Shown here in pieces: positions 6,761 to 22,387 of a stretch of 25,799 bases of DNA (positions are counted from its first letter, which is position 1; each line of letters begins with the position of its first letter). The notes below the pieces were generated by a model. That model saw nothing but the letters and a program-made list of their open reading frames with translations. It ran no database searches and was not told the origin of the DNA. Source of the DNA: a virus; IMG/VR virus record IMGVR_UViG_3300031758_000504, positions 1-25,799 of that record. One strand, written 5' to 3'. Position numbers and translations under genes: made by a program.

Positions 6761-7489
6761 TTATTTTTTAATAATTTTAAATGAAAGCAATTCAGGATAT
6801 TTCTCTATACTATTTTTATCTATCATATATGAAGAATTTTCAAGAACAGTTTTAATAATTGATAAAATTTCCTTTTTGAAGTTGAATATACTTACATTAA
6901 TACCATTAACATCAGTTTCTAAAGCAACATCATTTCCACTAAAATCTTCTAATGCTTTTTCTAGTTTATTACTTAAATCTTCTGTATTCTCATTTACTTG
7001 TTGAGTATCATATTTACCAGTCATTACTTTATCAGCTTTAAATTGTCCAAACATTTTTTCATAATCATCAGACATTTGTGCTTCATCTGAAGTGTCAAAT
7101 TTTAGATCTGTATTAAGAATTTTATCGATTCTAGCTGGGTCATTAGCATTAAAAAGTAAAACATTTTGTGATTGATAACCTTGATCTTTGGTTCTGTCTC
7201 CTATAGTCACACCCCAATATTCTTCTCCATCTTTTTCATTTTTGTATTTGGTTAATGTAACTCCATTTTCTCCAGTTTTTACTTCACCTGTTGGTTTTAA
7301 ATTCTTTTTTAAATCTTGGTTTTTAGCCCATTTAATAACTTTTTTCCCTCCAGCTACTGCTCCCGCTACTAAAGCTCCAAGAGCAAGAGCAGTTCCAACT
7401 ACTTCATTTAAATTTTTAACTTTTTCTTTATATTCTGATTCTGTGATTAAACCAGCAGTTTTTTGCATTTTATAGAATTCTTTATTCAT
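6761..7489 (-). CDS. KMQK-motif protein with a hydrophobic glycine-zipper segment
   Basis: The 242-residue protein opens with MNKEFYKMQKTAGLITE (residues 1-17), almost identical to the 91-residue protein at 19554-19829 and to an internal element of the 293-residue protein at 13588-14469. Residues 30-48 form a hydrophobic Gly/Ala-rich stretch (TALALGALVAGAVAGG), either a membrane segment or a glycine zipper. A beta-rich section (about 75-115, with GEEYWGVTIGDRTKD-type strands) and a C-terminal alpha/beta section follow. The leader ends in I-T-E, which fits the T4 prohead protease recognition rule. The gene is monocistronic, with a late-type promoter motif 23 bases before the ATG and a strong terminator after the stop. 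I infer a virion or packaged protein that may insert in the host membrane on ejection. Confidence 0.8.
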   Translation of the reverse strand: MNKEFYKMQKTAGLITESEYKEKVKNLNEVVGTALALGALVAGAVAGGKKVIKWAKNQDLKKNLKPTGEVKTGENGVTLTKYKNEKDGEEYWGVTIGDRTKDQGYQSQNVLLFNANDPARIDKILNTDLKFDTSDEAQMSDDYEKMFGQFKADKVMTGKYDTQQVNENTEDLSNKLEKALEDFSGNDVALETDVNGINVSIFNFKKEILSIIKTVLENSSYMIDKNSIEKYPELLSFKIIKK

Positions 7490-7512
7490 TATTTTAGTAT
7501 GTTTATTTATGT

Positions 7513-13587: not shown

Positions 13588-14469
13588 TTAAGCGTTCCAT
13601 CCTAAATTACGGAGCATATCTTGATCATCCATCCCATAATTACTCTGATTTGATGAAGATGATTTTAACCATCCAGAAACAGCTTTTACTGCTTCATCAA
13701 AGGTCATATGCTCTCCAAAATCAAGACTAGAGTCATTTGAATTTATCACCCATACATTAGAGTTCTCATCATATTGATCTTGATATACATCGTCAACTCC
13801 AATTGCTATTTCTTGTTTTCCTTTTTTGTAAGTTAACATATCCATATCTCCATCTGTGTCTGATACACTAGGTAACCATGAAATTGAGCGGTATGGTTTA
13901 ATATTCCCACTTACTCCTGTGCTTTGTTTTATATAATCCATCAGATCATTGATGGCCTCGTATGCTGGTGGGGTGTAGTTTTCAACTAATCTTCTTTTTT
14001 GATTATATTGAGACTCTGTAATGACACCTGCTAATTTTTGCATTTTAAGGAATGATTCATTTAAAGATTCATCTTTCATACCCATTTTATCCATATTATA
14101 TGTTTCTTCAACATATGTTTCATCCATTGCATCTACTGTTTCATCAACAGATTCTTCTTTATCTGTTTCAGCATCAGTGGTTACTTCTTTACCTTTTTTC
14201 TTAGCTTTTTGCTTTTCAAGCTTTTCTTTAGTTTTCTTAAGATCTTTTAATTTCTTTTTAAGCTCATTAAGTTTACCTTCATCTACTAACTCTTTAACTT
14301 CTTCTAAGTTTTCAGCTTTAGTAATTTTGTCTTCACAAGTTTTGATAGCTTTATCATATTCAGCTAATCTAGCTTCCATAGCAGCAGCTTCAGCTACAGC
14401 TTCAATTTCTTTAATATGGTCTTTAACTGACTCTCTTATAAGGGAACGTAATTTTTCTACTTTATTCAT
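13588..14469 (-). CDS. KMQK-motif protein with N-terminal coiled coil
   Basis: The 293-residue protein combines both leader types of this window. The N-terminus is a charged helix (MNKVEKLRSLIRESVKDHIK, followed by E: I-K-E). A long Lys/Glu coiled coil follows (about 30-95), then an acidic linker (96-138). At residues 142-152 comes KMQKLAGVITE, nearly the same as the first 17 residues of two other proteins. The C-terminal 125 residues form a separate domain with aromatic and acidic residues (DVYQDQYDENSNVWVIN and a GEHMTFDEAVKAVSGWL helix). This looks like a fusion of a coiled-coil leader to a KMQK-type protein. It is monocistronic, with a late-type motif 15 bases before the ATG and a hairpin downstream. 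A packaged or structural role is inferred. Confidence 0.8.
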   Translation of the reverse strand: MNKVEKLRSLIRESVKDHIKEIEAVAEAAAMEARLAEYDKAIKTCEDKITKAENLEEVKELVDEGKLNELKKKLKDLKKTKEKLEKQKAKKKGKEVTTDAETDKEESVDETVDAMDETYVEETYNMDKMGMKDESLNESFLKMQKLAGVITESQYNQKRRLVENYTPPAYEAINDLMDYIKQSTGVSGNIKPYRSISWLPSVSDTDGDMDMLTYKKGKQEIAIGVDDVYQDQYDENSNVWVINSNDSSLDFGEHMTFDEAVKAVSGWLKSSSSNQSNYGMDDQDMLRNLGWNA

Positions 14470-18909: not shown

Positions 18910-19148
18910 TTTCCTTTAGGCATAAACCAATTTGAACACCATTTTGAAGGATCTTTAATTTGATTTCCTTCATTATCTACTAATTCAGCTGTACCCATAT
19001 GTTCTTGATATTTTTTGTTTGAACACATATGTTTTTCATCTTCAACATAATAATACTTACAAACATGACAACCAAATCCTACAGGTGAGTACATGTAAGG
19101 AGGATACTCTCCTCCATTTTCTTTTAATAAATCTACTAGTTTTATCAT
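18906..19148 (-). CDS. Small four-cysteine protein
   Basis: The 80-residue protein begins with the helix MIKLVDLLKE. The core carries C-H-V-C (FGCHVCKYYY, about 27-30), C in HMCSNKKY (about 42) and C in SKWCSNWFMP (about 71). Four Cys spaced CxxC-x11-C-x28-C suggest a zinc ribbon-like knob or an iron-sulfur site such as that of high-potential iron proteins, and the sequence does not decide. The gene shares 4-base ATGA overlaps with both neighbours and so is translated with the Cys-rich 125-residue protein and the cupin-like protein. The leader could serve for head targeting. Confidence 0.7.
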   Translation of the reverse strand: MIKLVDLLKENGGEYPPYMYSPVGFGCHVCKYYYVEDEKHMCSNKKYQEHMGTAELVDNEGNQIKDPSKWCSNWFMPKGK

Positions 19149-19522
19149 TTTGTTTTACCCCATTTTTTACCTTTGCCTTTTGTTTTACATTGAGCTGGTG
19201 TTGGGCGGCATGAAGGATATTTAGCACGTTTTTCACCTTCTTTTCTACCACAAGGCTTGCATTTACCATTTCTGCATGTATTGCAATCTACCCATCCACC
19301 TTCTTTACCTGGTGTACCTCTACGTTTAAACCATTTATGTAATGATTCGTCTTCAGTTAATTCTTCTTCTTTTATGTCTTTCCAAATTTTACCTTGACGA
19401 CATCTAACAATTGCTCCTGATTTATAGGCAGAAGGCTTATCATATTTGCGATCAGCAATACGTTTGCATCTATCTGCTTTTTTCTCTAAAAGAAGTTGAA
19501 GGAGTATTTTGGTTAGTTTCAT
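19145..19522 (-). CDS. Basic Cys-rich conserved phage protein
   Basis: The 125-residue protein has the leader MKLTKILLQLLLEKKADRC (L-L-E), then KPSAYKSGAIVRCRQGKIWK (about 29-48), a GGWVDCNTC-x4-CKPCGRKEGEKR cluster and the C-terminal pattern YPSCRPTPAQCK followed by a GKGKKWGK tail. I recognise this as a widespread phage family of unknown function. The Cys pairs suggest a zinc-binding fold and the strong positive charge suggests nucleic acid binding. Its ATG lies just 1 base after the TAA of an 8-codon relic of the 229-residue protein family. That indicates this gene originally followed the gene at 20515-21180 directly. Confidence 0.8.
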   Translation of the reverse strand: MKLTKILLQLLLEKKADRCKRIADRKYDKPSAYKSGAIVRCRQGKIWKDIKEEELTEDESLHKWFKRRGTPGKEGGWVDCNTCRNGKCKPCGRKEGEKRAKYPSCRPTPAQCKTKGKGKKWGKTK

Positions 19523-19523
19523 A

Positions 19524-19550
19524 TTACCAGTATCCTGAGAATGTTGTTTT
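19524..19550 (-). pseudogene. C-terminal relic of a gene like that at 20515-21180
   Basis: On the minus strand the nine codons after position 19551 read K-T-T-F-S-G-Y-W-stop, directly before the ATG of the next gene. The gene at 20515-21180 ends K-T-T-F-T-G-Y-W-stop. Nearly every codon differs at the third base only, so this is an old homologous coding end and not a recent copy. It is in frame with, but separated by a TAA and one Asn codon from, the 91-residue gene. Confidence 0.65.
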
Positions 19551-19553
19551 GTT

Positions 19554-19829
19554 TTAGGTATATGATCCTGTTTTTCCTTTAATTGGGTTTAATTCAATTT
19601 TACCATCTATTGGTTGTCCAATTCTGTATATCTCACCATCTATCTCAGCTTTTAATATGTGATTATAGAACGCTATTTCAGGTTTTACTTCTTTACCATT
19701 TAAAGTATAGGTGTATTTTTCATATCTTTCAATTTTTTCATCAGATGTTTCATTTTCAACTAATTGTTTAAACTGGGTTTCAGTAATTAAACCAGCTGTT
19801 TTTTGCATTTTAAGGAACTCTTTGTTCAT
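19554..19829 (-). CDS. Short KMQK-motif protein in the endonuclease cassette
   Basis: The 91-residue protein begins MNKEFLKMQKTAGLITE, with only one change in 17 residues from the protein at 6761-7489. A Glu-rich helix and a small beta-rich section follow (YTYTLNGKEVKPEIAFYNH and KAEIDGEIYRIGQPIDGKIE), which may be a single compact domain. The leader ends in I-T-E. A late-type motif variant (ATATGTAT) lies 19 bases before the ATG and overlaps the stop codon of the homing endonuclease gene. The gene seems to travel with the endonuclease in an inserted cassette. After its TAA the frame continues for nine codons, through the relic, to a second TAA; readthrough would add NKTTFSGYW. Confidence 0.75.
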   Translation of the reverse strand: MNKEFLKMQKTAGLITETQFKQLVENETSDEKIERYEKYTYTLNGKEVKPEIAFYNHILKAEIDGEIYRIGQPIDGKIELNPIKGKTGSYT

Positions 19830-19846
19830 AGTATTTTGATTTTTAT

Positions 19847-20473
19847 TTATACATATTGTGCTCTATACTGCTTGTTCTTAATAGTTTGAGCCTTACCAAT
19901 AAGTTGACATCTTACTGTTTCTGGGTTGATTTGTAAGTCATAGGCTAAATCATGATAACTAGGATATGTTTTAATATACTCACCTGTTATTTTATAGAGA
20001 GCTACATGGTTACCTTTTCCTTTATTAGGGCTTACTCTACCTTTGTGTGCTTTAGAGACATTTGGTTTAGGACCATCAGGTTTACCTTTTTTAGGATTAG
20101 GTTTTCCTAGTTTAGCTTTAGAAATTTTATCACAGACTTCTTGAGAATATTTACGTCCTGTTAATTTTTCACTAACTGTTTTTTTGGTTTCTTCTTTATG
20201 GAGATTATTTCCTCTAGCATCATTAGTCATGTTATAGAACATTGGGTTGTTAGCGGCGTTAAATTTTATTAGATAGTGTGTCTCTATACCTCGAGCATCA
20301 CCATCTCCTTCCCATAATATTTCTCTAGTAAAATTTTCTTTACCATGTTTTTTTAAAGCACTTTTTATTGCTTTTCCACTTCCGTAGTAATCTTTATCAA
20401 TATCAGATTTTCTAGAAGATCCAATGTATTTTTTATTATTAATTAAATTGGTTATAAGATAAACATAAGCCAT
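19847..20473 (-). CDS. GIY-YIG homing endonuclease
   Basis: This is a free-standing homing endonuclease of the T4 Seg type. It cuts cognate sites in related phages, so that repair copies the gene across. In 208 residues the GIY-YIG domain shows V-Y-L at 4-6 (GIY variant), YIG at 16-18, SSRKSD, a catalytic Glu at 64 (GIETHYL) and N81. Residues about 110-155 carry NUMOD3-like repeats (KISKAKLGKPNPKKGK, VSKAHKGRVSPNKGK), and the last 55 residues a NUMOD1/helix-turn-helix-like DNA-binding part (YPSYHDLAYDLQINPETVR). Unlike its neighbours it has a strong Shine-Dalgarno site (GGAGGG, 4 bases before the ATG), which suggests origin in a different translation background. A late-type motif lies 16 bases before the ATG. 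Confidence 0.95.
   Translation of the reverse strand: MAYVYLITNLINNKKYIGSSRKSDIDKDYYGSGKAIKSALKKHGKENFTREILWEGDGDARGIETHYLIKFNAANNPMFYNMTNDARGNNLHKEETKKTVSEKLTGRKYSQEVCDKISKAKLGKPNPKKGKPDGPKPNVSKAHKGRVSPNKGKGNHVALYKITGEYIKTYPSYHDLAYDLQINPETVRCQLIGKAQTIKNKQYRAQYV
19849..19856 (-). promoter_or_regulatory. Late-type promoter variant for the 91-residue KMQK gene
   Basis: On the minus strand AATATGTATAAATAAAAATC contains an exact TATAAATA (T4 late octamer). The ATATGTAT core ends 19 bases before the ATG and shares bases with the last codons (Tyr-Val-stop) of the endonuclease gene. Confidence 0.6.
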
Positions 20474-20489
20474 ATTCCCTCCATTTATT

Positions 20490-20497
20490 ATAAATAT
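20490..20497 (-). promoter_or_regulatory. Late-type promoter motif and strong ribosome-binding site for the endonuclease
   Basis: On the minus strand CAATATTTATAATAAATGG places the core 16 bases before the ATG, with GGAGGG in between. It is the only strong Shine-Dalgarno sequence I found in the window. Confidence 0.6.
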
Positions 20498-20514
20498 TGG
20501 GGGTGCTGTTTACC

Positions 20515-21180
20515 TTACCAATAACCAGTAAAAGTAGTTTTGAACCCTAGCAATTTGGCAAATTTTGGCAACCTACAACTCCAGTAACTAGCTTTAGTGC
20601 GATCTTTTTTATTAGCACAGTCATGTCTTTTTGCAAATGCTTGACGTGCTTTTGGATTGTTAAGTTTTGCTCTTAACCCTCCACCTGCCATACCAAATGA
20701 TACTTTTTTAATACGTTTGGTTTTAGGATCTTTAACATAAACATAGAATTTCTTAGATCCACCACGTTTTGGTTTTCCTAAAGCAGGTTGTTTCTTTTCT
20801 TCTTCTATTTCTTCTTCAGTTAAATTTTCATGAATCATCATAAGAAAATCAAGTGGAACTACTTGAGATTCATAAATTCCAAATTTACCTAAATCTGTAT
20901 TTTCAAATAATTGTTTATCAATACCTGATAAGTTAATTATACCTTGCTTCCATAATAATCTTGCCTCATGAATTAGCTCAATATGTGCTTTAGAACCAGG
21001 TCTATATATGGTTTCTTGTAGTGAAAGTTTGTTATTTATATGGTATCTTAATCCTTCAGAGATTGGGGCGTTATATTGTTTTGATTCATTTAAACGCACT
21101 GCTTTACTACAGTCATCACATCCTAAACTTGGTTGTTCAGATAATATTTTTTTAAGAGTTTCTATTAGTTGCTGTTTCAT
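20515..21180 (-). CDS. Conserved phage protein with YVYVKDPKT and Cys-basic C-terminus
   Basis: The ATG at 21180 gives 221 residues beginning MKQQLIETLKKILSEQ (leader ending L-S-E). An ATG at 21204 would add eight residues and overlap the nuclease gene. A CDDC pair follows the leader. The middle has the conserved segment AHIELIHEARLLWKQGIINL, then DLGKFGIYESQVVPLDF. The C-terminal 90 residues show KRGGSKKFYVYVKDPKTKR, KVSFGMAGGGLRAK, ARQAFAKRHDC and KASYWSCRLPKF, ending TTFTGYW. I know this as a widespread T4-supergroup protein of unknown function, probably in the virion and possibly zinc- and DNA-binding. Its 3' end appears to have been replaced when the endonuclease cassette came in. Confidence 0.8.
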   Translation of the reverse strand: MKQQLIETLKKILSEQPSLGCDDCSKAVRLNESKQYNAPISEGLRYHINNKLSLQETIYRPGSKAHIELIHEARLLWKQGIINLSGIDKQLFENTDLGKFGIYESQVVPLDFLMMIHENLTEEEIEEEKKQPALGKPKRGGSKKFYVYVKDPKTKRIKKVSFGMAGGGLRAKLNNPKARQAFAKRHDCANKKDRTKASYWSCRLPKFAKLLGFKTTFTGYW

Positions 21181-21184
21181 AAAT

Positions 21185-22387
21185 TTATTTTTTAATGTAG
21201 TCACACATTATATGAGTAGGATATAACTCACCACCTTTATTTCTTATATTAAGTTTAAATTTATATAAAGCTGATTCAAAAGTTATGTCAATTCTTTTTC
21301 CTGTTCCTCCTATTCCACCATAATATACATTAACTGCATCTGTAATATCGGAGGACAAATTAACATATTTAGAGTCTATTTTAAAAAACTCATGTCCTTT
21401 ACCACCAGCTTTAACCATATAATATCCTTCACCTATACCAGATTTAATTAAATTTTTAAGTTTAGAAGAACTATATTTAACTGTGGGACCATTTATATTT
21501 GAAAAATCAGCGTCTGGGTAGTCATTAAATACTTTACAAAATGTTTTATTATCAACACCTAAAGCTTCTAGTAATGATTTACCATCTTGATTTTTAATTT
21601 CACCTTCTTCTATTTCTTTAGCTGGTAAAATTTTAGTAATTCCTGAGTTAAAGAATGTTAGAGTAGAACCAAATTTAGCTGAGATATAATAATTTTTAGA
21701 ATCTTTAGTTATAGTAATATCAGTTAAAGTAGCTGCGGCGGTTACATTTGAAAATTTTATCAATGGGTTACCACCTTCAAATGTTAAAGGACGAGATTGA
21801 TTTTTTTCTCCTTCAGATTTAACATCAAAATTACCTTGTTTAAGGTCTAATTCTTTTGAAATTTCAATTATTAGATCTGGGTATTTAAATTGATCTAAGG
21901 TAGATTGTTCAATACCATTGTCACGAAGTGTTTCTAAATCAGATAATAATTCTCCTTCAAATCCTATTCCTCTAGATTTAATACCTCTTCCACCTCTAGA
22001 ACCTTCACCCCATTTAATAGTTATACCTTCCCATTTTCCTCCACTAAAATTATTTAATTTAATATTTAATTTATCTGATAAGAAAGTAGTAAATTTAGGA
22101 TCTCTTTGTAATGAACGAGATATTTTAACTGTGTTAGGAGAATTAGAATCTAATACAATTGGATCTTCTAAAGATAATCCAGAATATGATTTTATAATAG
22201 AAAATAATTGTTGTATTTTTGGATTTTCTATTTTATCTTCAGATTTAGGAAAAATAGTAAAAGCCTCATCTAATACCTCACCTACTAATGATTCAAGCAA
22301 AGAAATATCCTGCTCATTATTCATGTCAGGATATCCTTTAGGGAATTTATAGGAGATACTATTTAAAAACTTTTCAAATATATTCAT
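21185..22387 (-). CDS. Predicted PD-(D/E)XK-like nuclease of the late block
   Basis: The 400-residue protein begins MNIFEKFLNSISYKFPKGYP (with DMNNEQD next), a start I associate with a conserved family in T4-like marine phages. In the centre, GFEGELL (E144, E146), TDITITKD (D223) and YYISAKFG (S236-A237-K238) give the E...D...(S/E/Q)-x-K order of the PD-(D/E)XK nuclease fold, with a GSTLTFFNSG loop after the Lys as in some restriction endonucleases. I therefore infer a metal-dependent DNA nuclease. Gly-rich segments (GEGSRGGRGIKSRGIG) lie before the catalytic Glu. It shares one base with the preceding gene's stop (TAATG). Lying among packaged-type proteins, it may enter the cell with the DNA or act late. 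Confidence 0.7.
   Translation of the reverse strand: MNIFEKFLNSISYKFPKGYPDMNNEQDISLLESLVGEVLDEAFTIFPKSEDKIENPKIQQLFSIIKSYSGLSLEDPIVLDSNSPNTVKISRSLQRDPKFTTFLSDKLNIKLNNFSGGKWEGITIKWGEGSRGGRGIKSRGIGFEGELLSDLETLRDNGIEQSTLDQFKYPDLIIEISKELDLKQGNFDVKSEGEKNQSRPLTFEGGNPLIKFSNVTAAATLTDITITKDSKNYYISAKFGSTLTFFNSGITKILPAKEIEEGEIKNQDGKSLLEALGVDNKTFCKVFNDYPDADFSNINGPTVKYSSSKLKNLIKSGIGEGYYMVKAGGKGHEFFKIDSKYVNLSSDITDAVNVYYGGIGGTGKRIDITFESALYKFKLNIRNKGGELYPTHIMCDYIKK

Follow-up and report, generated by a model that had tools for sequence, protein, structure and literature searches.

Introduction

Free-standing homing endonucleases and the intronless homing that they drive have been well described in bacteriophage T4 (PMC2988022), and in intronless homing the donor sequence is assumed to make the recipient resistant (PMC12724721). 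The Seg enzymes of T4, like the enzyme of the phage cassette that we describe here, are GIY-YIG endonucleases of intergenic regions, their flanking sequences are transferred with them, and the donor is expected to resist cleavage; T4 enzymes, however, cut hundreds to thousands of base pairs from their own genes (PMC2988022), whereas in the phage cassette the altered target lies ~40–110 bp from the start of the endonuclease gene and fossils of the target remain. I-TevI also has a GIY-YIG catalytic domain and, after cutting, remains attached to the DNA on one side of the break, which biases co-conversion toward the other side (PMC2988022). Such asymmetry would fit a locus whose upstream part is replaced and whose downstream part is kept, but I-TevI is encoded within an intron, whereas the phage cassette has none and sits between a stop codon and a start codon. 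Phage homing endonucleases are likewise known to shuffle their domains, a swapped catalytic half being carried on a conserved DNA-binding half (PMC10448857); in the phage cassette such shuffled versions, A and B, both occupy the same insertion site.

The closest precedent is found in fungal mitochondria, where mobile ORFs (mORFs) supply the genes that they invade with new C-termini and the native ones persist, as in atp6 of Allomyces macrogynus and atp6, atp9, cox2 and nad3 of Glomus (PMC3630166). In these elements, as in the phage cassette, a free-standing endonuclease ORF brings in a replacement 3' end with the native end lying downstream, and in atp6, as in the phage gene considered here, the DNA differs but still encodes largely the same protein. 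The mORFs differ in that they reside in an organelle, mostly encode LAGLIDADG enzymes (one encodes a GIY-YIG enzyme) and have been interpreted as bringing in foreign C-termini that originated in other species, whereas the phage cassette has an ordinary phage composition except in its tail, and its one site is represented by many alleles, some empty, some occupied and some decayed. The phage cassette therefore works like the mORFs without being a member of that group, since it lies on a phage contig and the best-matching families of its enzyme are phage homing endonucleases. In the open-access literature that we searched, we found no phage report of this arrangement as a population series at one site.

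Here we analyze a 25,799-nucleotide metagenomic contig from an uncultured phage (hereafter the window) by comparison with other metagenomic contigs of IMG/VR. Comparison of alleles leads us to conclude, with considerable confidence, that the window carries a homing cassette of the free-standing GIY-YIG type, directed at the DNA of the last codons of its upstream neighbor.

Results

Two versions of one gene end flank an endonuclease gene

All of the features of the locus lie on the minus strand of the window. The invaded gene, which we call G221 (20515–21180; its ORF can also be read from a GTG at 21204), encodes 221 amino acids with a C-terminal domain like phrog_7595, and its last 17 codons and stop (20515–20568) make up a recoded 3' end carried with the endonuclease. 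A leader that contains CCCCCAATATTTATAATAAATGGAGGG and is missing in empty alleles extends from the G221 stop to the endonuclease ATG (20474–20514) and is followed by the endonuclease gene itself (19847–20473; 208 amino acids), which is assigned to the GIY-YIG family by domain matches and to homing by comparison. Overlapping the stop codon of this gene is TATAAATA (19844–19851), a box that resembles a T4 late promoter; it lies just 5' of a 91-residue cargo gene, the KMQK gene (19554–19829), and may be the promoter of that gene. Between the cargo gene and the downstream gene G125 (19145–19522; 125 amino acids, DUF5872) lies what remains of the original 3' end of G221, a fossil (19524–19550) that reads KTTFSGYW-stop (AAAACAACATTCTCAGGATACTGGTAA) and is separated by a single base (19523) from the G125 ATG at 19522.

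The two ends can be compared directly. In particular, G221 now terminates (20515–20541) in AAA ACT ACT TTT ACT GGT TAT TGG TAA, encoding KTTFTGYW-stop, whereas the orphan end reads AAA ACA ACA TTC TCA GGA TAC TGG TAA; the two are alike at 20 of 27 bases and differ mainly at third positions. A degenerate gene-end pattern had exactly two matches in the whole record, namely these two ends, and the orphan agreed with the native-tail pattern at 31 of 31 positions, compared with a maximum of 21 of 31 in shuffled sequence. Although the orphan is in frame with the 91-residue gene, it lies 3' of the stop codon of that gene. The sequence thus reads as the initial annotation had described it, with respect to the two ends, the gene order and the position of the orphan before the G125 ATG.

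Relatives contain the uninvaded site

We searched IMG/VR with G125 and G221 and mapped the contents of the interval between the two genes in relatives. In many relatives free of the endonuclease, G221 ends in KTTFSG(Y/F)W-stop, a single T follows, and the ATG of G125 or of another small gene comes next. The native G221 end has the sequence GGATTTAAAACAACATTCTCAGGATACTGGTAATATG, and six distinct tails from endonuclease-free relatives are identical to the orphan of the window at 27 of 27 bases, which identifies the orphan as the old end of G221. At many loci G221 and G125 are adjacent across a 1-base gap with one KTTFSGYW end, bearing out the proposal that the flanking genes originally adjoined in this way. 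The sole near-relative that has both ends but lacks the endonuclease (L008/L095) retains ~45 bp of the 3' end of a deleted endonuclease gene and so does not speak against the insertion; its recoded tail is still in place, as are a cargo gene and a fossil that has acquired mutations. Cultured phages yielded no close cassette, the best-covered matches among isolates being ~32% identical; in the G221 relative of Flavobacterium phage immuto, the downstream gene starts one base past the stop codon and no endonuclease is annotated there.

Within the last eight G221 codons of empty alleles (for example L084, L087 and L327), the synonymous mismatch was 0.13, compared with 0.39 upstream. The native end is thus unusually conserved at synonymous sites across phages, even where different genes lie downstream, perhaps because it contains start signals of the next gene. 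As a separate observation, the G125 homologues in L300, L302, L094 and L316 contain large internal insertions (up to 411 amino acids, compared with 125), at least one of which has an asparagine-rich stretch.

The recoded end travels with the endonuclease

We aligned the codons of nine G221 alleles that carry or once carried the cassette with those of 19 empty alleles. Over the last 11 codons, the mismatch among codons for the same residue was 0.74 between the two classes, as against 0.18 and 0.25 within them, whereas over codons 26–49 from the stop it was 0.39 both between the classes and within each. The excess of between-class mismatch in the tail (0.53) compares with a permutation maximum of 0.145. 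The two threonine codons illustrate the split: all of the empty alleles compared have ACA ACA, whereas every cassette allele has ACT as the second codon and either ACT or ACC as the first. Upstream of the last ~17–22 codons, G221 did not separate endonuclease-bearing from empty phages, and in a tree of the G221 body (minus the last 25 codons) the cassette label was scattered, changing 8 times, as did shuffled labels on average (8.0), a pattern that bears only indirectly on preferential inheritance in mixed infection.

Close pairs agree with the codon test and the body tree. L299, which has the cassette, and L087, which is empty, are 90–92% identical on both flanks, and their divergence is concentrated in the insert and the final ~21 codons of G221; L095 and L117 are 93% identical over 3.2 kb. 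The recoded tract varies in length between phages, from ~17 to 22 codons, as would be expected of co-conversion. These findings support the view that the endonuclease and the altered 3' end of G221 arrive together, the nine carriers differing from the 19 empties in the very stretch that would be the target. The clean split between recoded and native tails applies mainly to the clade with KTTF ends, because among more distant phages, whose ends read KSSF or KSNF, some of the empty tails look like recoded ones (L113).

Decay of the cassette leaves the recoded end in place. In addition to L095, two loci (L064 and L131) have apparently undergone other deletions and have kept tails of the recoded type and short pieces of the cassette.

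Only the tail of G221 has an unusual composition

Recoded tails had a mean GC3 of 0.46, compared with 0.17 upstream in the same genes and 0.16 in empty tails. GC3 ranged from 0.10 to 0.15 in the endonuclease genes, from 0.10 to 0.22 in the body of G221 and from 0.25 to 0.62 in its last ~17 codons, the recoded tail of the window being the mildest case (0.25). Recoded tails favor codons that are rare in the phage, such as CCC, AGC, GGG and ACC. A GC-rich foreign donor of the whole cassette is unsupported, since it would have marked the endonuclease gene too, and the GC3 of that gene is as low as that of the host gene. The simplest reading is that the tail has been recoded by selection to differ from the AT-ending native target.

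The initial annotation had taken the new 3' end to be foreign, and one form of that idea fares better than the other alternatives while still appearing unlikely: the recoded end would derive from a foreign G221 homologue, part of which had been picked up along with the endonuclease, and its divergence would simply be that of the donor lineage. The tail is indeed sharply unlike the body and sorts with the endonuclease, and the C-terminal replacements of fungi have been explained in this way (PMC3630166). But only the tail has a raised GC3, the endonuclease and the G221 body having ordinary codon use, and the protein is nearly unchanged while synonymous sites have changed toward phage-rare codons, all of which local recoding fits better; no donor G221 for the recoded end was identified.

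It is less probable again, and on balance doubtful, that the tail was recoded because it forms, with the leader, an RNA structure that governs how the endonuclease transcript is translated or processed. T4 homing endonucleases are regulated by RNA structures (PMC2988022), and in some cassette alleles a predicted stem covers the stop codon (L314, z = −2.7; L107, z = −1.8). The tail and leader of cassette alleles nonetheless fold only slightly better than shuffled sequence (mean z = −0.8, compared with 0.1), the value for the window is +0.7, the predicted structures differ between alleles, and retention of the recoding in deleted cassettes is not predicted by such a role. An RNA hairpin is therefore a weak candidate for the main cause of recoding, although selection at the RNA level could contribute.

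One insertion site, two catalytic halves

Residues 2–81 of the endonuclease form a GIY-YIG domain of the SegE type (Pfam SegE_GIY-YIG, 40.3 bits; cut-off, 25), and the C-terminal half has weak matches to NUMOD3 and NUMOD1; close relatives pass PF01541, and no solved relative was found by sequence. All 21 of the distinct endonuclease copies with readable upstream sequence lie directly 3' of a G221-type end, and relatives contain empty alleles of this site. Among these endonucleases, two different catalytic halves, A (SegE-like) and B (of another GIY-YIG type), each precede one shared C-terminal half, and both versions occupy a single insertion site, as would be expected if the C-terminal half picks the target. 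This natural domain swap separates L091, L093 and L004 from L094, L025 and the gene of the window (19847–20473), the C-terminal halves being closely similar. A group I intron or an intein was considered and rejected: G221 is complete with its own stop codon, the endonuclease gene is inserted between a stop and a start codon, outside of any such element, and no Rfam intron matched within 19100–21300.

Fossil ends share a junction, and the cargo slot is reused

Fossils of the native end are present in three unrelated loci, those of the window, L218 and L304, and all three start with the first nucleotide of codon −8. They agree with native ends at 27, 26 and 24 of 27 bases, respectively, and with the tails of their own G221 genes at 20, 21 and 17. 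In L218 the fossil is kept before a different downstream gene, and a close genotype recurs in a second dataset; in L304 a fossil of the KSSF type comes immediately after a B-type cassette, without cargo between them. In the stretch of L304 that lies 673–969 bases past the G221 stop, the fossil apparently now provides the start codon and N-terminus of the next gene in another frame. The locus thus combines an endonuclease ORF, a replacement 3' end and a native end displaced downstream, as the mORFs do. A fossil end would then be the 3' part of the target, severed at a junction common to three independent loci, and the edge at codon −8, our best estimate of the cutting or joining point, probably marks the cut. 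The junctions are A-rich (AAAA), so microhomology rather than the cut could partly explain the common edge.

The cargo differs from locus to locus. The position is occupied by the KMQK gene in the window, an 87-residue gene in L218, a 124-residue gene in L298 and a gene that follows the deleted endonuclease gene in L095, and four cassettes (L219, L299, L300 and L302) have none. The only near full-length relative of the 91-residue protein, in L163, is encoded by a gene that stands alone, has a different N-terminus and shares nearly the same end residues; it stops at the same place, in ...KGKTGLYT-stop, without a GYW tail, and we therefore reject GYW as the normal C-terminus of the 91-residue gene. 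Since this relative has no endonuclease beside it, four cassettes are free of cargo and the other cargo genes are unrelated, the suggestion that the KMQK gene is a passenger of the homing element finds no support as a lasting partnership; the comparison points instead to a cargo slot reused by different genes.

In the window, three proteins (19743–19841, 7403–7501 and 13978–14076) contain the motif F(L/Y)KMQK-AG-(I/V)TE, at or near the N-terminus in two of them. The motif resembles capsid-targeting peptides of the T4 type, with their LxE/IxE protease site, and by this likeness the small cargo proteins might be packaged.

More generally, relatives in IMG/VR have a hotspot of small-gene exchange between G221 and G125, where many different genes are found even if the endonuclease is absent. 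This exchange lends some plausibility to an origin of the duplicated end by insertion of a small gene through short-homology recombination at the conserved tail, with the endonuclease unrelated, but we consider such an origin improbable: among 35 distinct contexts in which a native tail is followed by ATG, all are real G221 ends except those of the window and the L218 genotype, both of which have the endonuclease, the L304 remnant directly follows an endonuclease gene without cargo, and L095 retains endonuclease debris. That the structure is a metagenome-assembly chimera of two phage variants is very improbable, even though the window is a fragmentary record, because the L218 genotype has the same architecture on two contigs from different datasets (98.5% identity over 3.2 kb) and cassette, empty and decayed forms occur on many independent contigs.

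Discussion

Comparison of contigs reveals that the site exists in an empty form, that tail and endonuclease are inherited together, that the site has been invaded repeatedly, that loci share a junction and that some copies have decayed. These observations are most likely explained by intronless homing in which the target is synonymously recoded, and from this we infer cleavage, the position of the cut, the resistance of the recoded end and the route of repair. In a phage with a native end, the enzyme would bind the conserved 3' end of G221 and cut near codon −8 (GGATTT/AAAACAACA). The upstream side of the break would be resected and copied from a co-infecting phage that bears the cassette, bringing in ~50–70 bp of synonymously recoded G221 end, the leader and the endonuclease gene; because the incoming end is synonymously recoded, the G221 protein would be essentially unchanged. 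The downstream side would either be repaired by homology, with complete removal of the old end (L219, L299 and L302), or be joined as it is, sometimes with a small gene in between, in which case the old end would persist as a fossil (as in the window, L218 and L304). Replacement upstream and retention downstream would follow if the enzyme behaves like I-TevI and holds on to only one side of the break. The endonuclease is probably unable to cut the recoded end, which would thereby protect the new carrier from its own enzyme and would stay in place when the endonuclease gene is later deleted (L095, L064 and L131).

We raise more tentatively, as an idea with somewhat less than even chances, that homing cassettes of this kind spread an immunity allele: a synonymously altered gene end selected to be maximally unlike the native target within the limits set by the amino-acid sequence, which would outlive the endonuclease as nuclease-free resistance, while the fossils would record the cut and the cargo.

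Carriers of homing endonucleases are thought to be spared by sequence differences in the target, which have usually been seen in one pair of phages. Here, natural alleles of one site, whether empty, freshly invaded, cargo-bearing or decayed, allow the recoded stretch, the probable cut and the outcome of repair to be read. The findings extend the gene-end-swapping architecture of fungal mitochondria to phages, and they suggest a route by which phages may gain small genes between conserved neighbors.
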